Source: Candidatus Methylacidiphilum fumarolicum
Lineage (GTDB): Bacteria > Verrucomicrobiota > Verrucomicrobiia > Methylacidiphilales > Methylacidiphilaceae
DNA length: 64,000 nucleotides
Assembly: GCF_949774925.1 (NCBI RefSeq)
Contig: NZ_OX458932.1
Coordinates: 1,736,001-1,800,000, forward strand
Reading direction: 5' to 3'
In this document: positions 16,750 to 43,056 of the stretch, one piece after another
How positions within the stretch are numbered: position 1 is the first letter of the stretch
Layout: each line of letters begins with the position of its first letter
Notes under the pieces: model-generated
The model's input: only the letters and a program-made list of their open reading frames with translations
Told to the model about the DNA's origin: nothing
Database searches by the model: none
Made by a program: the position numbers and the translations under genes

Positions 16750-18345
16750 TCAATAGGAGATCCATCTAGAAAAAATTTTATCTTTTTTATCGCTTTTCTT
16801 CTTTTCCTCTGTCTTCGATTCACTATGACCCATTTCTAAGCTATGAACTACTCCATCCAAGCCTGAGGGCTCTGGGATGGAGTTTCGCGCTTCCCTGCGG
16901 GCAGTTTCACCGGAGTATGCTCGGCTCGCGGACTTCCAGCCCGCAGCGAGGTTCCATCCGGCCAGAGCTTCCCGCTCCACGCATGGATCGGTTCCCGTCC
17001 ATTCCTTTCCGTATACAACGACCTTCGGCCCTGGAAAGGCGAAGCCGTGGTCCTTCTCCCATTTCGCCAAGCCCCAGTCGAGAAGCCCGAGCGCCGAGTT
17101 CTCGTCCCGATGGCAGGACGCTCCGCATGCGCACTCATGCCACCGGTCGCCGAGGGTCTTTTCCACGACGCCGCCGCATCGGTGGCATCTCTGGCTTGGC
17201 TTCAACGTCCTCGCCTGTGCTTCCAGCTATCCGATACCAGCCTCTTCCGCTTTGTATCCGACCATCGCCCCGAAAGCTCCGAACGATGCGTCCAACATCT
17301 CTCGATTCAGCCCGGCTTTTTGCCGCACACGTTTCCCGGGCTTTTTCCGGCTGCCCCGGGCCGAAGCCGTCATCCTTTTCGGCTCCAGCTCCTCCGTGAT
17401 CAACAGTCCGCTGCGTCTCACCATCGCGGCGCTCTGCTTGTGCAGGAAATCCTTCCTGACGTTCGCCACCTTGGCGTGCATCCGGGCGAGCAGCTCGTAC
17501 TGCTTGCGCAACCTCTTGGAAATGCGAAATCCCTTCCGTTTCCCCTGCTTGCGGATCGCCGCCTCCATCTTGCGGGAGATCGTCCGTCCGAGCTTCCTGA
17601 GCTTCTTAAGCGCCTTGCGCAGATGGCGCGGATTGGCGACCTCGGAAACGTCCGGCTCGCTCTTTTCCGGCTCCAACCTGGCGCTAGTCAGGAACCGCTC
17701 CGTGCCCAGGTCGAAAGCCTCGGCTCCACAGCCATGCTCCCGCGCCGGCCGGCAGCGCATCGTGACCGACGCATGCCATCGGCCGCCGGAAAGAAAGATC
17801 TCGCATGTCCTGGGTTCTCCGGGAGTACGGGCCTTGCCCCGGATCGGGATCTCCCCAATGCCGGAGAGACGAAGCTTCAGGTGAGCGCTTCGCTCTCTGG
17901 CGATCAGCCGCCAGTCACCTTCGTGCTGCTTGAAGCCGAAACCGCTGAATCGCCCTGCCTGCTTGAAACGCGGGAATCCCGGCTTTTCGCCTTGCCGGAT
18001 GCGGCGGAAGAACGCCTGAAAGGCGAGATCCAACCTCTTGAGCGTTACCTGGGCGGATTGAGCATTGATCGAGGCGAGAAGCGCGCTGCAGGAACGGAGC
18101 TCGGTGAGCCATCGGCACTGCTCGGCGAAACCGATGCGCCGCTTTTCCTCCTTCCACGCCCGCCTGCGCTCCTCCAAAGCTAGGTTCCAGAGAAAGCAAT
18201 GGACCCAGCGAGTCCGCAAAAGCTCATCCCGGACGGTCTTGGATGGATAGAGCCGGTAGGTGACCTTGCGCTCGACCGGGCCCAGAACGGGAAGACCAGC
18301 GGGTGATGCGATCATCATGAGGCGACGCTGGACAGTGGCCAGCAA
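16750..18345 (-). pseudogene. tnpB: TnpB (RNA-guided nuclease, IS605 OrfB) interrupted by an in-frame amber codon
   Basis: TnpB is the transposon-encoded ancestor of Cas12 nucleases. The reading frame shows the N-terminal YRLYPSK motif, the RuvC Asp in AFDLGTERF and the RuvC Glu in LLITEELEPKRM. It then reaches a TAG at 17227-17229 after YKAEEAGIG. In the same frame beyond the stop follow the zinc finger (CHRCGG...CACG) and the last RuvC residue (CHRDENSALGLLDW). So a nonsense codon, not a frameshift, cuts off the zinc finger and third catalytic residue. The frame runs on to 16750, but the element end near 16850 suggests that the last part is read-out into flanking DNA. It is probably inactive unless the stop is suppressed. 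Confidence 0.88.
16851..16882. repeat. Right-end subterminal hairpin of the IS605-type element
   Basis: CTCCATCC (16851-16858) pairs perfectly with GGATGGAG (16875-16882), with an inner AGCC/GGCT stem. It marks the tnpB-side end of the element, where TnpA would bind single-stranded DNA and where the TnpB guide RNA would be encoded. Confidence 0.65.
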
Positions 18346-18366
18346 TATGGTCTATCATTTAGTGTA

Positions 18367-18783
18367 ATGACAGGTCAAGTGCGTTTGCACCTTCTGCATC
18401 ACTGCGTTTACGCGCTGCACTACCATTTAGTTCTTGTCACAAAATACCGCCGCAAGGCGCTTACCCGCCCCATGCTTGACCGGTTGCGTGCTATTGCGGA
18501 AATGAGCTGGGATGGATGGGGCGGACAGCTGCTTGAGTGCAACGGAGAATCTGACCACGTTCACTTGCTGGTTGCGTTGCCACCAAATCTTGGACTCAGC
18601 CGCTTCCTGAACAATCTCAAGACAACTTCTTCCAGACTTCTCCGCAGAGAGTTTGCCACAACGGTCGCCCGTTTCTATCGTAAGGCAGTTCTTTGGAGCC
18701 GTTCCTACTGCGTTATCACGTGCGGGGGCGCCCCATTAACCGTCCTCAAACAGCACATCGAACGGCAAGAAACGCCGGAATAG
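18367..18783 (+). CDS. tnpA: IS200/IS605 Y1 transposase TnpA, catalytic Tyr replaced by His
   Basis: A 138-aa single-strand HUH transposase. The N-terminal HYHLVLVTKYR and the HUH motif His64-Val-His66 (DHVHLLV) are intact, as is CVITCGGAPL. The family's catalytic Tyr lies in a KQYIxxQ helix; here the protein reads KQHIERQ, with codon CAC at 18754-18756 (residue 130). A single T-to-C change from TAC explains it. Without the Tyr nucleophile the enzyme should not cleave or join DNA. The frame is otherwise complete. It is divergent from tnpB, with 21 nt between the starts. Confidence 0.88.
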   Translation: MTGQVRLHLLHHCVYALHYHLVLVTKYRRKALTRPMLDRLRAIAEMSWDGWGGQLLECNGESDHVHLLVALPPNLGLSRFLNNLKTTSSRLLRREFATTVARFYRKAVLWSRSYCVITCGGAPLTVLKQHIERQETPE

Positions 18784-33789: not shown

Positions 33790-33861
33790 GCCGGCTTAGC
33801 TCAGAGGTAGAGCAACGGTTTTGTAAACCGTGGGTCGAGGGTTCGAATCCCTCAGCCGGCT
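33790..33861 (+). tRNA. tRNA-Thr(UGU)
   Basis: A full cloverleaf of 72 nt: acceptor GCCGGCT/AGCCGGC, anticodon stem ACGGT/ACCGT with loop TTTGTAA (anticodon TGT), T arm GAGGG-TTCGAAT-CCCTC. CCA is not encoded. Its 3' part (33812-33861) recurs as a decayed copy at 40725-40774, so this tRNA is the attachment site of an integrated element. Confidence 0.95.
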
Positions 33862-34962
33862 CGAAATTTTCCTCTGGTGGGAAGCCAATCTTAGGCATTC
33901 TAGCTTGATCCGCAGGATTTTTCCTATTGATGGCATTGAACATTGCTAGCACAGGTGGGCGGATAAGCGCAAGGAAGTAAACGATCAAATAACGACACTT
34001 AAATAGGTTGGGGTTACCATGCAAAGGTAATCCATGTTTGGTGAAAATTTCGGCCGGAGACAGCTGAATTCCAGAGATTCGCGGAAAAGCTAGCAGGAAG
34101 ATTATCCAATTCAGTGGAAAAAGAAGTACTTTGTCAACCTGAGAAGCTGGAATGTGCTTTTGGACTCATTGCGTCATTGCTCACCACAAGCAATGTTACT
34201 TCTAATACGAGTCTCCATTTGTATCGATTGCAGTTCTGTGAAAGGAACCGTTAAGGAGGCTTTAGGAAGGCAAGTATCTGATCTTGCAAAAAGTCTCTCC
34301 AGTAGCAATTGTTCTTTGCCTACAAGAGCTCCATTGAACACCGAGCAAGCCTTTCTAAAAGCTTGGAGCGTGTCCTAAAAATTCCTGCGATCTATCGCAA
34401 TGATTTCCCTAGCAATTCCATCCCTATGTTTTTGTCATCGCCTCAGTCATCTTGCTCGGCTGGCTCATGGGGAAACTCAAGGCAGCTAAGCTCTCCTTTT
34501 CTACCGGAAAAGGCCCTGACTTACCTATGCACAGTCCAAATATGCCCGAGGCAAATATCGAGCACAACAAACACCGTAAATTCATACAGGAAAATGAACG
34601 GGCACGTCAGATGCTTTCCATTCTCAAAATTGGTTTCTTGAAAGCTTTGAAAATGGAAAAAAACCTTCAAAAGGCTCACATTGGAATAAACTACGAAGAA
34701 TGCCATGGATAATTAAGACATTACAAAACTTTTACCAAACACGGAAGAAGTCGTACCGCCGGCTGCAGGTATCTCTTCTCTCCAAGAATCACGATACTGC
34801 GCCGATACGACGCCTTTGGATATTGGTTGCTCTCTGCGTCAGCCAAAAACTTGGCCATGGTCGCAAAGACGACTTTGCTTGGCAATTGAGAGACATTCCA
34901 TTTGACTGATTGCTTGCAACAGCGAGTGACGCAAAGGCTCCGCAGCACGAATTTACAACGTG
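33862..34962. other. Degraded spacer between tRNA-Thr and the helicase-nuclease gene
   Basis: About 1.1 kb without a convincing intact gene. One frame on the plus strand (34411-34712) reads a hydrophobic segment (YVFVIASVILLGWLMGKLK) followed by a polar, charged tail, but lacks a proper start; it may be the remnant of a small membrane protein. This is where a lost integrase would be expected, but I recognise none. Confidence 0.4.
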
Positions 34963-37900
34963 TTAACCGCTGGCTGCTCGCTTCACGACCCTCGTAAGGT
35001 ACGCCTTACGAGACTTTGTGAGCCGGGTGAAGTGGTAATGCTCCAGGATAGCCCTGAAGGGAACTTCGTAGTTTGCATCCGACATAAATGTTAGCATGTC
35101 TTTCTGCCGTAGCACCGCAATCAGCTCTGATGGCGGGATATCGATCAGATCGCGCCTTCCCGCAGGCCTCATATTCACTGCAGGCGTCCCCTTGATGCGG
35201 ACCACCTGACCTTCTGGTGAGCCATCACCGAGCTCATCTTCCTGGACAATCTCGCCAGCACGAAGCATTGCTCCCAAAGCCCTGTTCAACTCTTGCCGCA
35301 CAGTCTGCCCGACTCGCTGGAGATACGGGCAACCTTCGACGTAGAGCCGGTACACTGACGAGCGTGTGAGCGGACCGTCTCGCTCGATAATCTGCCGAAG
35401 TATCTCCTGGATATTAGCTATGGACGCCTCTCGAGGGTCAGGGAAACCTGAAGCCTTTGAGTACCCAGTGAACGGACCAACGACCACCGAAGACTCCTCG
35501 GCTTCAGGAGCGCTTTCCTCTGTAACCTCGCTTTCGACAGTCGTTACCTCTAGGGTAGCCCTTGTGCTATTACGATCCGGTGCAGGGTCCCCCATTTGTC
35601 CGCGTTGAGTTCCTTCGACGAATTTCAAAGGTCTGATCCCAAGCTCTTCACATGCCTCTAACACTGTGGCCAGAGCCCGTTGCCGGTCCGCATAGAAATC
35701 AGACTCGCGCACTCGCACGAACCTCCAGCCGGCCCGTTCGAGCTGCCGCTGTCGTTTCATGTCGCGGTCGTATTGTTCCAGACCGTGCCACTCCTCACCA
35801 TCGCACTCAATAGCCAGACGCGCCTCTATCCCTTCTACCACGAGGTCGATTCGGTAATTAGCCACCTTAACCTGGGGGCGTATTCTATAGCGACACCGCA
35901 GTAGCTCAAGCGCGACATCCACCTCAAACCAGCTCTCGTATGGGTCGGGTTGGGTATGCAGCCGCCGTGGCCCCCTCGCTGCACGCTCTAGCTGGTTGAG
36001 ATCTTCGAAAAAGAGATCGACTACTTGTGGACTCTCGAAGAAGCTGATTAGTTGACGGCGCAGGTCGTCGGGTGCAAGGTCATGCGGTTTGATGCTGTAG
36101 AAGAGCCAAACTTGATCTCGTGCTCGACTCATGGCCACGTTGAAACGCCGCTGCTCCGAAAGACGTGTTAGAGCTCGGGAATGCACGTTCGGAGAGATCA
36201 CTAACGAAAGGAATATAACGTCTCTCTCGTCGCCCTGGAACATCGCAGGCTCACCGCAACGCAGGCGGCGTTCTTCGATCACCCTGGGTTCAAGCCTTTG
36301 GGCAAGCAGGCTATCAATGAGTTGAGACTGAGCATGGCCTTGCAGAGCGATGACTCCAATGGTCTTACCTTCATAGTTCTTATCATTCACTAGCCCCACA
36401 ACTGTTTCGACAAGAGCCTCGGCCTCGGCGCGATTCACGATTCTCTGTCCTTCTCCTACACAAGAACCTTCAGCGACAAAACGCGAACGAAGGGGCTTAA
36501 GCCTCTCGGGAGGGGCCTGACGCAGCGGGATCAACGGTGCGTCGCGGTAGCAGAGGTCGTTACTGAAGCGGATGATCTCAGGTACACAGCGAAAGTGCTC
36601 GCGAAGGCTGATGTGGCTCCCAAACGTTCGCTCCGCATGATCGAAAAGGCTAGAATCAAGGCGAAATTCGTCTCGATAATGAAACTGGCTCAAGTGCTCA
36701 CGCACGAGACACTCGATTTCGCGCTCCTCTATCCCAACTGCTTCGGGGCTGTTCTGCTTGTCGTCGCCCACAACCACAATGCGCTTCGCCAACAGTAATA
36801 GAACCAGAGCATCGATGCCGGCTTGCGATGCTTCGTCCACGACCACCGTCTCGAAGAGACCAGGCACCGCATCAACAGAGGCCCAAAGCTTATGAAGCGG
36901 CATGATCCACGCCGGAATACGCGGAACGCAGTCCTTGAGGTATCTCCGCGCCGTGCGCCGGTTTTTATGTGCGTGCTTTCCGGTGCCCTTGCCAATTCTT
37001 TCCACGGTCTTTGTCCAAGCGTTCAGGCTTTGGATCGTTCTCTCGTCCAGCCGGTCAAAGAATGCTTTCCAGGCGCGGAGAGAAGCCAGTTTCTCAGTTG
37101 CCTTCTCGATCTTCCTTTTGAAGCGGTGGTAGTCTTGCACCCGTGTTTCATAAGCCGAGCTGTTACTGAGCTGCCGCAGCCACGAGCGGGCGGCGGCCCA
37201 ATGCCAAGCTTCTTTAAGCCGAAGGATCCGCTCGCTCCAACCTGTATTGCCTTCCGTGCTTCGGAGCAGATCTGCAAGTGCTGGACAGGATGAGCCGAGC
37301 GTATCAAGCAAGCTCTCATAGCGCTCCAGGCGCAGTTTCTCTTGCTTCAGTCTTTCTCGCTCCTGCCAGGCGGTCCGCCACGCGGCAACATCGCGTGATC
37401 GTGCGGCATTCTCGAGAGAACTCAGGCAGGAATGGGCTTTTGATCCCAGGCGTAAGCGACGCACGGTGTCAATGAGCCAGTCCAACTCCTGCTGTACGTC
37501 ATGAAATCGTCGCAAATCAAGTAGCGCATTGATGATCTTCAACCATTCACTACGGCCATTGGCGGAAGCAAGCTCTGTACGGTTCGGACCGAAAGCCGTC
37601 ACTAGTAAGACGGCGTGATCGGAGTTGAAAAATGCCAGTAGTTCGTTCACCCCCTCTGTCAGCTCTTCGGCTCGCGATATAGCTTGCCGGAGACTAGAAA
37701 CATCTAGCAGAGAAGCCTCCCAGAGCCGTTGCAGCTCACAAGATATACTTCGTAGATCCAAATAGTCGCGCACGCATCGAAGCTGCTCGATGTCTACGAC
37801 CTTCTTCCCATCGACCCGACAATACCTTGCAATGTAGCGAGTCTCTCGTACAACTCGTGGCGCAAGAATAAAGAACCCCATCCAGCCACCAGCCTCCAGA

Positions 37901-40065
37901 TGAGCCAGAAGTCGCTCGATGTCTGCTCTCAGTTTATCCCCAGCGATCTTATCCGGTAGCTCGATACGAGCGGATGAAATCGCTTCAATGAGGCGCTTGG
38001 CGCGTGTCAGCAGACCCTCCGAGTCGGCAACACGGCGCGTCCAGCGAGCTTCAGCAGAAGCCAGCAAATCCTGCAGAACATTCACCGAAATGACACCCAA
38101 CACACGCTCGGCCCGAAGGGCGTGATTGGTCAGCACTTGAATGGCTGAATGGAGCTTGAGGAGTTGCTCCGTGCCGGTCGCCTCTAGCAGCTCAGGTTTT
38201 GCTGCATCTACAAGACCACTCGCTCTTCGTGCTGACATCTCTGCTTCTTTCATACGCTCGATCAAGTCCTCAAACTCGTTCGGACTGAGGAGCTCGGCAT
38301 CTCCGATTTCGAGGAACAGCTCAGCCCGAGTACCTGCAGTCAAGCCAACATGGACCTCGGCAAGGAAGTCTGTCTCCGAAGGGTCAAGGGGAAACGGGGC
38401 ATCAGCAGACACTTCCGATACCCAGCCGAACTCCTGTTCTTGCTCGCTTAATTTCCGCGCTATCTGTGCAGCTGTTCCCGAATACCCGCCGGACAGCTCG
38501 TGCGAGTACGTCTCTGCCTCTCGGAATTCCTGGAGGTCCCGCTCGACCCTCGCTAGCTCTCCTTCAAGCGCCCGAAGATCCGCCTCTGCTTCTTGTATTG
38601 CGCGATGTGCTGCTTCCGACCCGGGCCATTCATTCATACGCCTCAGAATCCCATGGACACTATCTTCGAGAAGGCGCTGATCCTCGCGCGAGGATCCAAG
38701 CGCCGTTACACAGAGGTCCTGAATGTCACTTGGCAGAAGGCCACGCAGTACTGCCAGCGCCTTCGCTGCGTGGGCAGTCACTAAGACCCGATCGCCCCTG
38801 GCGAGCAGATGGCAGATGAGGTTCGCAATGGTATGGCTCTTTCCTGTTCCCGGTGGGCCCTTAACAAGGACGCACGAACCGGTTTGAAGACGCTGTACGA
38901 TCTGTTTCTGCTCTTCGTTATACGGAAGAGGAAAAAGAGGACGGCTCTCCTCCACGGGGCCCGCTGCACTGCTTTCTTCATGGCTATCAGCAGCTACCCT
39001 CGGGGACTCGCCTTCCCTGAGCAGATGTTCCCACGGCGGTGTGCCTTGTAGCACACCGACTGTAGCACCCTCTTGGAATTTACAGATAAGCTCGTCATAA
39101 GCTGTTGAACGTCGCTCGCGAAGCACTACCGCTGGTGAAAACGACAACCGTGGACGCTCGTCGATGTTGCCAGCGTGATCGAATGACATGTCCACCTGTG
39201 CATCTACACTGAGTCTGTTTGCAATTTTGCGCAAGAGAGGAGCGACATGATCGTTGTCCCAAGCCTGGATGTCAAGTGTTTCGAGGTAATTGTCGAGCAT
39301 GTCTTTGTTGAGCCGCGGCCTATGCTGAGGCTCGATCATATCAAGCTCGACCTTAAAGGTATCAAACGTAGCTGCAGGCACGACACTGAGTTGTCCTCTT
39401 GCCGCGTCGAAGGTGAGTTCTGCTGGTGCAGTTAAAACATGGCGTTTGATGATCACGCCCGTGGGATCACGCCACTGCAAATAGCCAATTGCAAGCACGA
39501 GTTCGTAACGCTCTTCGGCCTCTTCGAGGCGGCGGTGCATGAAGTAGAGGTCCTTGTAGACAGACTGCACACCCCCCCAGTTCCGCATTTCTTGCGCCCA
39601 CGGCTCCCACTTGTCAACGAGATACTCAAGCCAGGCATCCTGAATCTGTGGGAAATCTGTCAGCCGGCGCAGTTCGGGCACCTTCTGCACGATCCCTGAC
39701 TGGATGCCCTTCGTCTCATCGAGATCTGGCATTTTTCGTTCAACGAGCACCGTGATTTCACAAAGCAGTTCGGGCTCATTGTTCGGATCGTCCAGTGTGC
39801 CGCTCTGCACCCAATCGGCTACGGCCGACGGTACGGAAGGCCGTAGAGGCATCCGCTTTTTCCGGACTTCAAGCCAAACCTCACCTGAGTCCTCTCCGCA
39901 GTTCTTCAAGAAAGGAGACCTACATTCGTCGGCTTCCCTGGGTATCTCGGCAAACCAAAGGACACGCTCCTCCGAGCCATAGGAGGAGATACGCCTGCGT
40001 CTTATCGCGGCGCTGTCTTTTAGAAAAGCCAGAAGAGCTGCTCCCTTACTCATCGCCTTAGGCAC
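34963..40065 (-). CDS. Giant SF1 helicase with C-terminal Vsr/MTES_1575-like nuclease (putative defence protein)
   Basis: 1,700 aa. An N-terminal domain of unknown kind (about 1-370) precedes Walker A at 402-410 (KGPPGTGKSHT). Long coiled-coil and helical inserts (about 470-1050) follow, then Walker B VVVDEASQAG (about 1078), VVVGDDKQNSPEAVG, and helicase motif VI FNVAMSRARDQVWLFYS (about 1310), a UPF1/DNA2-like SF1 layout. A PD-(D/E)XK fold of the Vsr/MTES_1575 type (about 1375-1470) shows YRIDLVVEG, LAIECDGEEWHG and GWRFVRVRESDFY. The tail (about 1545-1650) resembles DUF3320. This resembles DUF4011-helicase-Vsr (Hhe-type) antiphage proteins, though I see no typical DUF4011. It is the only intact gene of the tRNA-Thr island and GC-rich. 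The frame is unbroken, so it is likely functional. Confidence 0.85.
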   Translation of the reverse strand: MPKAMSKGAALLAFLKDSAAIRRRRISSYGSEERVLWFAEIPREADECRSPFLKNCGEDSGEVWLEVRKKRMPLRPSVPSAVADWVQSGTLDDPNNEPELLCEITVLVERKMPDLDETKGIQSGIVQKVPELRRLTDFPQIQDAWLEYLVDKWEPWAQEMRNWGGVQSVYKDLYFMHRRLEEAEERYELVLAIGYLQWRDPTGVIIKRHVLTAPAELTFDAARGQLSVVPAATFDTFKVELDMIEPQHRPRLNKDMLDNYLETLDIQAWDNDHVAPLLRKIANRLSVDAQVDMSFDHAGNIDERPRLSFSPAVVLRERRSTAYDELICKFQEGATVGVLQGTPPWEHLLREGESPRVAADSHEESSAAGPVEESRPLFPLPYNEEQKQIVQRLQTGSCVLVKGPPGTGKSHTIANLICHLLARGDRVLVTAHAAKALAVLRGLLPSDIQDLCVTALGSSREDQRLLEDSVHGILRRMNEWPGSEAAHRAIQEAEADLRALEGELARVERDLQEFREAETYSHELSGGYSGTAAQIARKLSEQEQEFGWVSEVSADAPFPLDPSETDFLAEVHVGLTAGTRAELFLEIGDAELLSPNEFEDLIERMKEAEMSARRASGLVDAAKPELLEATGTEQLLKLHSAIQVLTNHALRAERVLGVISVNVLQDLLASAEARWTRRVADSEGLLTRAKRLIEAISSARIELPDKIAGDKLRADIERLLAHLEAGGWMGFFILAPRVVRETRYIARYCRVDGKKVVDIEQLRCVRDYLDLRSISCELQRLWEASLLDVSSLRQAISRAEELTEGVNELLAFFNSDHAVLLVTAFGPNRTELASANGRSEWLKIINALLDLRRFHDVQQELDWLIDTVRRLRLGSKAHSCLSSLENAARSRDVAAWRTAWQERERLKQEKLRLERYESLLDTLGSSCPALADLLRSTEGNTGWSERILRLKEAWHWAAARSWLRQLSNSSAYETRVQDYHRFKRKIEKATEKLASLRAWKAFFDRLDERTIQSLNAWTKTVERIGKGTGKHAHKNRRTARRYLKDCVPRIPAWIMPLHKLWASVDAVPGLFETVVVDEASQAGIDALVLLLLAKRIVVVGDDKQNSPEAVGIEEREIECLVREHLSQFHYRDEFRLDSSLFDHAERTFGSHISLREHFRCVPEIIRFSNDLCYRDAPLIPLRQAPPERLKPLRSRFVAEGSCVGEGQRIVNRAEAEALVETVVGLVNDKNYEGKTIGVIALQGHAQSQLIDSLLAQRLEPRVIEERRLRCGEPAMFQGDERDVIFLSLVISPNVHSRALTRLSEQRRFNVAMSRARDQVWLFYSIKPHDLAPDDLRRQLISFFESPQVVDLFFEDLNQLERAARGPRRLHTQPDPYESWFEVDVALELLRCRYRIRPQVKVANYRIDLVVEGIEARLAIECDGEEWHGLEQYDRDMKRQRQLERAGWRFVRVRESDFYADRQRALATVLEACEELGIRPLKFVEGTQRGQMGDPAPDRNSTRATLEVTTVESEVTEESAPEAEESSVVVGPFTGYSKASGFPDPREASIANIQEILRQIIERDGPLTRSSVYRLYVEGCPYLQRVGQTVRQELNRALGAMLRAGEIVQEDELGDGSPEGQVVRIKGTPAVNMRPAGRRDLIDIPPSELIAVLRQKDMLTFMSDANYEVPFRAILEHYHFTRLTKSRKAYLTRVVKRAASG

Positions 40066-40724
40066 GCTTGGATTAGTGACTTTAAAACATAAATTCCTCG
40101 GCCCACAGCTCGTTTAATCTAACGGAAACCCATTAAAATAGGAAGAAGCCTTTCCCTGTTATTAACCGTTTACACTTACAAGGACCTTGTCTAAATTCCA
40201 AGTAGAGTAGGCCCTCCAGAGACTAAAGGATGGCGTAGAGATTCTACCTAAGATAATACATTCAGCCAAGCTGCTGGTCAAAAACCTAACGGGCCAAATA
40301 CTACTAAACATCATACCGTTTAAATGGCTAAGATGCACCGAATCATTACTAGCCCGTCTCACCATGAATTTTCCTAGCTTTTAAAGGAAAACCCGGTTAT
40401 TTCCAATCCAAGTCACCGTGAATGATCCAAGATTGTGAAAGTATACCGAGGAGTGACCAATGTGGCCAAACTGTGTCCCCAAAAATTGTTAAGCCAAACT
40501 GATTCCTCACGACAGCAGATGGAAGAAGCCAGAATGGCAAGCATATTCTTGAGAACAGATTTTGTCCCGGTTCATATTCTTTTGTTCCGATTCCAATCTA
40601 CAGTGGATGCTCCACAGCGACGACATTAGATACCAAAAGTAACGGCTATCTTTTCTCATGAAAATAAAGAAAACGATTTTTTTAACGACATTGCAAGCGT
40701 AAAATCCATCTAGGAGATCACTAT
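40066..40724. other. Spacer between the helicase-nuclease gene and the tRNA remnant
   Basis: About 660 nt with no supported gene. It would contain the promoter of the giant gene (its ATG is at 40063-40065). Short frames such as 40162-40365 and 40435-40629 show no recognisable domain. Confidence 0.4.
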
Positions 40725-40774
40725 GCAACCATTTTGCAAACCGTGGGCTGAGGGTTCGAATCCCTCAGCCAGCT
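40725..40774 (+). repeat. Decayed 3'-tRNA-Thr copy (att-like direct repeat)
   Basis: This 50-nt stretch matches 33812-33861 of the intact tRNA-Thr at 44 positions. The T arm (GAGGGTTCGAATCCCTC) is unchanged, while the anticodon loop reads TTTGCAA and the anticodon stem no longer pairs. No 5' tRNA half is present, so it is not a gene but a displaced attachment-site copy. Confidence 0.88.
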
Positions 40775-40959
40775 CTTCTTCCTGATATAATTCTATAATA
40801 ATTACTTCGGTAGCTGTTTTAAGTTCTTTTCCCCATTAGATCAGAACCGTTCCATCAAACGTATTCATTTCTGCTCATTAGCAGAAACAAAGCTAATTTC
40901 CTGCTTTATCGAAACCGGTTTCACCACCATCTTACTACGATGGCTAGAGCTTCCTTTCC

Positions 40960-42060
40960 CTAGGCTTCACATCTCGCAGAATTCACCGTAGACCCGCTTT
41001 GAACCGTAAAGCCAGACGCCAGGAGATGCATGGCCTCATTTGCCTCCCGGTCTTGGAGGCTTCCACAAACCGGGCAGGTCCATAAGTAACCCATCGCACC
41101 GTTGCGCCTGGTATTCCAGTTCTCATCGAACTCTAAAGCACCCTTGTTTTCCGTGGCCAAGGCCTTTGGCTGGCATTTCAGCCTTCCACGCCCATTCTCA
41201 TCCTCGAAGTCAATATGATGAAGAAATCGTATAAGGTTTGAGGTGAGTTTGTGCCAGGCGTCCTGCCAAATATTGGCGATGCGAGCGTGGAGCCTGGACA
41301 GCTTGGCTCTTGCCTTTTTTCTCATTCTCCGACACCGACAACCGTGTTCCTTTGGGAACCAGAGCATTGCCCGCCCACCCGAGCTTTCTCTTGGCGGATT
41401 AGTGCTTGGTCAAGAGACTGCAAGACAGTCATCGCAATTGCTTGAGTAATGTGCTGTGTGGTTTGAGATCGATGATCTTTTTCCCCCTAGATAGCGATGC
41501 CATAGCCGACATTCCCAAATCCACCCCAATCGCGCCTTGGTTTTCAGCAGGACGCAGATCGATAGCGTCGGTATCGGCGGGGACGCTGACAAACCACCAG
41601 TTCACCACCTGAAAGATGGTAGCAGAAAGGCTCTTGCCTGTGAAACGTAACGACCCCCACCTCCCTACCCCACTCAGTTTAGGTATACGGATGTGGCACC
41701 CGTCTAGAGAAAACTAGGTGTTGGTCAGGGGAAAACAGTCAGGCCCGCCTGTCTTGCGGTACTTCGGGTACTTTGCGCGTCCTGCCCAGAAGTTCTTGCA
41801 GGCGACTCCCAACTGCCCAATTGCCATCTGTGATGCGTTTTTGGTGACTTCGAGCATACAGGGGAATTGCTCGCGTTTCATGGCGTTGAGCTGGTAACGG
41901 AAGGAAGGCTGCGAGAGCTTGGGCAGGCAGGTGCTTGGCTTTCCCCCCCCCGCATAAAGTCTCTACCACTTGGTCAGCACCCAGTTGTATCTGAACCGCG
42001 TGGTCCCCGCTGCCTTGGCGAAGGAGGTGACCTAAATACTGTGTGAGACCAGCGCGATTA
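40960..42060 (-). pseudogene. tnpB: TnpB of the IS607-type element, multiply frameshifted
   Basis: TnpB pieces in order on the minus strand, in changing frames: TTRFRYNWVLTKW then TAG (the next residue is normally Gln), MKREQFPCMLEVTKNA, KNFWAGRAKYPKY, the RuvC motif GAIGVDLGMSAMASLSRGKK, RKKARAKLSRLHARIANIWQD and finally CPVCGSLQDREANEAMHL, the zinc-finger/RuvC-III end. A frameshift coincides with a run of C at about 41941. At least one nonsense codon and several shifts make it non-functional. Confidence 0.85.
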
Positions 42061-42074
42061 TGTAGCGATGATCC

Positions 42075-42580
42075 CGACTGAGATTCCTCCACAGCTTTTT
42101 TGACATCATCCAATAGCTTCTGGTTCTTGCGCAAGCGACTCCCCCGCATAGCCAAGCGCTAAACATTGCAATGATTTCCAACACGCCCTTGGCCCAATCT
42201 TCCTCGAAGGTCGTCTCTTTGTCTTGGTTGAGAAGGACCACTTCCACGTTTTTCGCCCTGTAGGTGGCAAATACCAGTTCTGTACCAAAGCACAACAGCC
42301 GGTTCTTGTGGAGGACGACCAGCCACTTAATCTTGCCACTGATGCCAGCATCGAGCAGCCGCTTGAGACCCCTCGTGTGAGAGTGTATGCCAGACCCTAC
42401 GTTCGCGATGGCCTCAAACGTTCAGCCCTGGCAGGCACAGAACAGCTCAAGCATCTGTTTCTGCCCTTCCAGCTCGTCCTTCTAATCGGGGCTGGAAACA
42501 CGGGCATAGGCAATGGTACGCCAGTTAGCTTCGGCTTCGGCACGGAATAGCTCTGGGGCAACCGCACAAGAGCGTAGCGC
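42075..42580 (-). pseudogene. IS607-type serine resolvase (TnpA), broken
   Basis: The minus-strand frame reads IAYARVSSPD-stop-KDELEGQKQMLELFCACQG-stop-TFEAIANVGSG, then LVVLHKNRLLCFGTEL and VLEIIAMFSAWLCG, the IS607 resolvase pattern with the catalytic Ser in RVSS. The two stops are TAG where CAG (Gln) is expected and TGA where TGG (Trp) is expected. A frameshift near 42,150 moves the end (MRGSRLRKNQKLLDDVKKA) to another frame. Confidence 0.85.
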
Positions 42581-42600
42581 TGGCGTCCGCCCGCCGTGCG

Positions 42601-43056
42601 GGCTTGCGGCAAAAGCTTGCCCTCGCGTTCCCATCACCGCAGCGTTGGGGCAGAACCCCTCAGGAACTCGGGCGGCCTTTTGAAGGCTGACCATCTTACG
42701 CGACAGGTTCAAGCTATGCATTGCTGAGCAACAAAGTGCCAGTGTTATGGAAACTGTTCAAGCCCATCAAAAAGGAGCCTAATTGGCATTTCAAAGAAAT
42801 GCAGATATAAGCCTTAAGCGACACCAGAATCTTCAGACTTTAGGCTTGAAAAGCCTTTAGAGCATCCATTCCCTGAGACTTCTCTACTCTCTCTACACTT
42901 TTTTGCTAGCTTCATGAGGCAGTATTCAAATCCATTACGATTAATTTTTGTCCAAATGGCTACTGTGCAATGAGCTAGATGGGTCAACATTATTTTCTTT
43001 TTCTCTAAGCAAGACGAAAAAGGGCCAATGGATTTAAATTAATCAAGGATCTCATC
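42601..43056. other. Spacer between the IS607 remnant and the next gene
   Basis: About 450 nt. GC-rich at the left (possibly the start of the IS607 element), AT-rich at the right, with an AAGGAT ribosome site just before the GTG at 43057. No gene is seen. Confidence 0.4.

Follow-up and report, generated by a model that had tools for sequence, protein, structure and literature searches.

A tRNA-targeted island of 6,913 bp carrying a single intact gene was identified behind a tRNA-Thr gene of Candidatus Methylacidiphilum fumarolicum (contig NZ_OX458932.1, positions 1,736,001 to 1,800,000; this stretch of 64,000 nucleotides is called the window, and all positions are window positions unless a locus is named). 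The gene encodes a helicase-nuclease of 1,700 amino acids. The island is probably the remnant of a tyrosine-integrase-type element which has lost its integrase and kept one horizontally acquired antiviral helicase-nuclease gene. The following features make up the locus, G000 and G001 being genome labels of this study:

33790-33862, plus strand: intact tRNA-Thr(TGT), the integration target (ARAGORN; Rfam tRNA, 74.4 bits)
33812-33862, plus strand: attL, direct repeat comprising the 3′ half of the tRNA (anticodon stem to 3′ end)
33863-34001, strand not assigned: island end sequence of about 140 nt, common to the tRNA-Arg(CCT) and tRNA-Ser(GCT) islands of G001 (74% and 70% identity)
34028-34744, strand not assigned: decayed insertion sequence inside the island, with terminal inverted repeat-like ends and relatives elsewhere in G000 and G001
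34963-40065, minus strand: gene of the 1,700-residue helicase-nuclease and sole intact gene on the island (start codon GTG, or possibly the ATG at codon 5)
40066-40724: right part of the island, non-coding, without a recognisable integrase
40725-40775, plus strand: attR, a displaced degenerate copy of the tRNA 3′ half, direct repeat; the sequence of the empty sites resumes at 40776
about 40848-42763: remnant of an IS607-type element outside the repeat, with serine-recombinase-like and TnpB-like fragments (assigned by eye)

The two copies of the tRNA 3′ half are 51 nt long, with 45 of the 51 positions identical, and form the sole long direct repeat found by a repeat search in the region. As the second copy is recovered with E = 5.2e-11 in a genome-wide BLASTN search, the repeat lies far beyond chance. 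The first-pass annotation, made from the letters of the sequence, had described 50 nt with six mismatches, which is correct for the mismatches and one base short in length. It had also proposed to look for empty tRNA-Thr sites in relatives, and these are present in two genomes of the same genus, G001 and G004, in which the 73-nt tRNA sequence is identical. In both of them the upstream flank is kept up to the final base of the tRNA (90% and 87%), and the downstream flank picks up again after 296 bp. The sequence directly 3′ of the tRNA in the empty sites, TTCTTCCT...GGTAGCTGTTTTAAGTT, is the one which follows the second repeat copy in the window from 40776 onward, and the island therefore comprises positions 33863-40775. 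The same gene at a conserved position without a tRNA copy in all relatives had been named beforehand as the finding that would speak against an island, and the comparison came out in favour of the annotation.

The empty-site relatives furthermore lack a second stretch, as their sequence skips from about position 40848 to 42763. Counting this stretch as part of the island was rejected, as it represents an IS607-type insertion of its own. About 30 places elsewhere in the genome match it, some of them with 97-99% identity over about 1 kb. According to the empty-site comparison, two independent insertions, the tRNA island and the IS607-type remnant, thus set this genome apart from its relatives. 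The GC content is 55.6% in the gene, 40-44% in the non-coding parts of the island and 43% in the window. The earlier statement that the gene is of higher GC than its flanks therefore stands for the gene itself, but the high GC which runs on past the repeat to about 42.7 kb is due to the IS607-type remnant and unrelated to the island. A further high-GC element, IS200/IS605-like and with a 138-residue TnpA-like and a TnpB-like open reading frame (ORF), lies at 16750-18783 between uvrC-like and purL-like genes.

Islands at other tRNA genes of the genus point to the type of element involved. The end sequence of about 140 nt recurs in G001 directly 3′ of tRNA-Arg(CCT) and tRNA-Ser(GCT). The tRNA-Arg island contains an intact tyrosine integrase of 381 amino acids followed by a 46-nt stretch which repeats the 3′ half of the tRNA without mismatch and agrees with the repeat of the tRNA-Thr island in length and position. 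In G002, another species of the genus, the tRNA-Thr gene is followed by two more copies of its 3′ part, of 45 and 48 nt (L028, 2872-2916 and 9517-9564), and a truncated tyrosine integrase adjoins the second of these tandem copies. On the grounds of end sequence and attachment site design, the tRNA-Thr island was therefore assigned to a family of tRNA-targeting elements. Taken with the empty sites and the other island at the same tRNA, this bears out the annotated tRNA-integrated island.

Two of the sister islands were also recorded for their own content. The element at L030 8125-17994 (G001, contig C88), with the shared 140-nt end and the exact 46-nt repeats at tRNA-Arg(CCT), is apparently a complete integrative element; it encodes a DUF3854 primase/ATPase-like protein of 1,101 amino acids, a helix-turn-helix protein and the 381-residue integrase. 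The island at L028 1638-9564 in G002, with its two tandem attachment copies and truncated integrase, is a second and unrelated one at the same tRNA-Thr hotspot. Islands at three different tRNA genes of the genus encode small proteins which look secreted and contain repeated 'NQVG..TFG' motifs (L028 7942-8268, L030 9611-10000, L031 2576-3046), with a weak trace at window positions 40330-40470 (E 8e-4).

The tRNA-Thr island itself bears the flanking repeat of a tRNA 3′ end and has empty counterparts, as is characteristic for a tRNA-integrated genomic island, but no integrase adjoins either end, so that it is a remnant and not an autonomous element. No integrase was found inside it by tblastn with the integrases of G001 and G002, and a partial query of 150 amino acids returned none from the genome as a whole, which is a weak negative. 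One relative of the decayed insertion sequence overlaps a transposase-like ORF of 574 amino acids, and Rfam detected nothing but the tRNA in the non-coding parts.

Between the repeats, the helicase-nuclease gene is the only ORF of more than 110 amino acids which is not nested in other frames of the gene. Its product is divided as follows:

38941-40065, minus strand: conserved N-terminal domain, residues 1-375, without Pfam or PDB match, with a possibly DUF4011-like stretch at residues 146-235
36016-38940, minus strand: superfamily 1 (SF1) helicase core of the Upf1/SMUBP2-like type with a long insertion, residues 376-1350 (Walker A 403-410, DEAS 1077-1080, motif VI 1306-1317)
35653-35928, minus strand: MTES_1575 restriction endonuclease (REase) domain of the Vsr fold, residues 1380-1471 (conserved E1381, D1407 and E1420-C-D1422-G)
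35236-35478, minus strand: winged-helix or DUF3320-like region, residues 1530-1610

Pfam confirms the annotated SF1 helicase with a C-terminal MTES_1575/Vsr nuclease, with matches to the helicase modules AAA_11 and AAA_12 and to MTES_1575 (PF18741) at 99.7 bits against a cut-off of 38.2. The relatives of the helicase in the PDB are Upf1, SEN1, SMUBP2 and DNA2. In an alignment with 11 homologues, the helicase motifs (Walker A, DEAS, GDDKQ, motif V and motif VI) and the nuclease residues are conserved with one exception, G005, and the D...ECDG core of the nuclease is intact in all further homologues from which it could be extracted; a lack of such conservation had been named as a finding which would count against the annotation, and this check, too, turned out in favour of it. 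Modelled with AlphaFold2, the C-terminal 331 residues show a nuclease fold of the Vsr/DUF559 type, which matches 3hrl and I-Bth0305I with probability 1.00 and template modelling scores by target of 0.69-0.75; matches to winged helices are weaker. Pfam score, active-site residues and fold thus agree on an MTES_1575 REase. Helicase and nuclease had been described correctly, but the DUF3320/winged-helix C-terminus had gone unrecognised; DUF3320 is matched at the C-terminus of seven of nine homologues. Some homologues end after the nuclease at about 1,500 amino acids, and others have a C-terminal extension (1,650-1,790 amino acids).

The exception, in another genus of the family (L005 1114-5520; L110 6757-11163, contig C4), has an open frame of 1,468 amino acids, yet it is a catalytically stripped helicase-nuclease: every nuclease residue is gone, as are Walker B and motif VI, with VIGGE in place of DEAS and GIIGPFA in place of the ExD stretch.

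The closest homologue was found in a metagenome-assembled genome of Kapaibacterium (64% identity), and both proteins are sisters in the tree with an SH-aLRT support of 100. Homologues of the same verrucomicrobial family group elsewhere, and that of G002 in the same genus is distant. Since the nearest relative is found in Kapaibacterium and the GC content, overall and by codon position, matches the gene of that organism, the helicase-nuclease gene was probably acquired horizontally. The differences between the two genes at the three codon positions (0.26/0.19/0.56) indicate constraint on the protein. This bears on the reading that the island is dead DNA and its gene a recently inactivated passenger. 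The missing integrase and the degraded attR copy and internal insertion sequence would suit such a relic, but a frame of 1,700 codons with all motifs conserved and a purifying codon-position pattern, kept while the surrounding island DNA decayed, makes it highly improbable.

Matches at E ≤ 1e-60 were found in 6 of 388 genomes of the phylum, and relatives are carried by 403 plasmid records. The notion that the gene family as such is linked to tRNAs was rejected: next to the homologous loci a tRNA is almost never found, and the tRNA therefore belongs to the vehicle and not to the gene. An origin as a phage component was likewise rejected, as pattern scans of IMG/VR gave no relative in viral contigs and the phage records only two weak partial matches.

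This distribution has to be weighed against the possibility that the protein is a stand-alone enzyme of DNA or RNA processing or repair, built from an SMUBP2/DNA2-like helicase and a Vsr-fold nuclease and carried as neutral or beneficial cargo without an immune function. The Upf1/SMUBP2/DNA2-like core fits this, as does the lack of a close relative in the phage records and viral contigs searched, and some homologues stand among housekeeping genes without tRNA or integrase, e.g., at the same locus near the UMP kinase gene in G007 and G008. However, a gene which occurs patchily in the phylum, was transferred between phyla, is carried on plasmids and lies in a mobile island is more in keeping with accessory defence than with core repair, and this explanation is regarded as unlikely. 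Lower still stands the idea of a maintenance or competition module, in which the helicase-nuclease would guard the integrative element that carries it against plasmids or other elements contending for these tRNA sites. The gene is the sole cargo retained by a member of an element family occupying several tRNA genes, and the plasmid-borne relatives would agree with such a role, but neither a mark for telling self from non-self nor a partner gene is visible, and from sequence alone such a module is not separable from antiphage defence.

The antiviral reading, which is preferred here, receives support from single homologue neighbourhoods. These contain BREX genes (pglZ-brxL), a restriction-methylation pair together with AbiE, a complete Azaca set (ZacA-ZacB-ZacC), a type IV restriction enzyme and Csx3/RAMP CRISPR genes. 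In Mycobacterium colombiense, the homologue lies on the same strand directly upstream of the complete ZacA, ZacB and ZacC genes (L058 7956-16560; G481, contig C59, 49770-54748). Three observations weigh against an antiviral function. An enrichment of defence genes near the homologues was not seen, as control neighbours matched 39 PADLOC families in 80 proteins versus 34 in 116; the controls were taken from related genomes and included tRNA-flanking loci and probable false positives of the TnpB type (Cas12f models). Enrichment as a statistic was dropped as unsupported by the control set, and only individual neighbourhoods are cited for defence because the control matched as many PADLOC families. 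In addition, inspection by eye revealed no obvious defence genes around L052 and L053, the two nearest relatives outside the phylum. Finally, the G005 homologue in the same family has lost the motifs of both enzymes while keeping its long ORF, and at least one lineage therefore uses the chassis differently or is decaying. An antiphage role of the helicase-nuclease nevertheless seems likely.

The comparison with known systems is consistent with such a role. PDC-S37 of PADLOC-DB (PDLC05009) aligns over helicase, nuclease and C-terminus at model positions 298-1533 of 1550 (234 bits, E 9e-70), whereas its first 297 or so positions remain unaligned to the N-terminal 385 residues, so that the match is not full-length; all family members tried match this model only partially. 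ProA (NCBIfam NF058533) aligns at model positions 613-1877 of 1903 with 248.9 bits, which is below the cut-off of 1,500 bits, and the N-terminal part of the model, about 600 positions, is unmatched. No describing paper was found in the literature for ProA or PDC-S37. With Hhe (DUF4011-helicase-Vsr; NF042953, PDLC02194) the protein shares the order of a possibly DUF4011-like part, an SF1 helicase and a Vsr-fold nuclease, but the model matches only residues 1071-1481 (129.6 bits, cut-off 2,000 bits), and the DUF4011 part is represented by a remote profile signal without a Pfam match. Mokosh models match partially. The giant HEPN-transglutaminase-SF1 helicase-Vsr-winged helix-turn-helix proteins of the MTES_1575 type also combine an SF1 helicase, an MTES_1575 REase and a C-terminal winged helix-turn-helix overlapping DUF3320, without a modification gene, and were proposed earlier as modification-independent defence proteins (PMC3710099); unlike these, the 1,700-residue protein has no HEPN or transglutaminase domain detectable with Pfam. 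That coupling of helicase and nuclease can serve antiphage immunity was described for Hna (PMC13381803) and Hachiman (PMC12278908). Hna, which couples ATPase and nuclease activities within one polypeptide and acts by abortive infection (PMC13381803), is taken as a mechanistic analogue only. The protein falls short of full membership in PDC-S37, ProA and Hhe, but by its architecture it would be expected to work like those systems.

For the N-terminal domain, residues 1-375, no Pfam match was obtained, and DUF4011 (PF13195) was unmatched in 26 homologues by hmmscan. No PDB entry was matched by sequence or by a fold search with the N-terminal model (predicted local distance difference test score 82). 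The domain is kept in homologues of Verrucomicrobiota, Kapaibacterium, Aminicenantes, actinomycetes and proteobacteria, and a relative in the same family is found in the record 'Verrucomicrobia bacterium LP2A'. In a comparison of its profile with the DUF4011 regions of other helicases, residues 146-235 align with the DUF4011 stretch, which precedes the helicase core by a similar distance. The hhalign score of 29.9 exceeds those of 60 column-shuffled controls (mean 13.4, maximum 21.0) and of the reversed profile (12.0), with an HH-suite probability of just 8%. Residues 1-375 may therefore represent a very divergent DUF4011-like domain. The annotated absence of a typical DUF4011 from the N-terminal 370 or so residues holds at the level of Pfam, but the suggestion of a new sensing part is tempered by the conservation across several phyla and the weak similarity to DUF4011 above the null. 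A more far-reaching proposal, that a distinct, unnamed family of single-gene antiviral helicase-nucleases with a new or extremely divergent DUF4011-class sensor is the sole cargo of tyrosine-integrase elements among the tRNA hotspots of extremophilic methanotrophs, is tentative and rather doubtful; the sensor would be the N-terminal domain of about 370 residues, which occurs in at least Verrucomicrobiota, Bacteroidota, Aminicenantes, Actinomycetota and Pseudomonadota.

Under the preferred explanation, a tyrosine-integrase-type element would have entered the 3′ half of tRNA-Thr(TGT), an insertion evident from the empty sites, with the integrase type suggested by the sister islands. Integration would have restored the tRNA at one end of the element, and the copy displaced to the other end would have mutated since. 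Later the element would have lost its integrase and been struck by an insertion sequence, which left one cargo gene intact. For the substrate, the trigger and the antiviral outcome, we infer that foreign or aberrant DNA (ends, forks or single-stranded gaps) or a DNA-bound phage protein may be recognised by the DUF4011-like N-terminus together with the C-terminal winged helix. The Upf1-like SF1 helicase would translocate by ATP hydrolysis and gate the Vsr-fold nuclease, which would cut DNA, so that a phage or plasmid is blocked by destruction of the invader or by killing of the cell. A modification enzyme would not be required.

If this is true, the island adds a compact single-gene nuclease-helicase candidate for immunity, with a sensor domain outside all libraries, to a class whose triggers are only starting to be understood. 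The stripped G005 homologue provides a natural experiment on the function which the chassis has in the absence of both enzymatic activities. Furthermore, tRNA-Thr(TGT) would be an integration hotspot in verrucomicrobial methanotrophs, at which accessory and defence genes could be discovered by comparing strains with filled and with empty sites.

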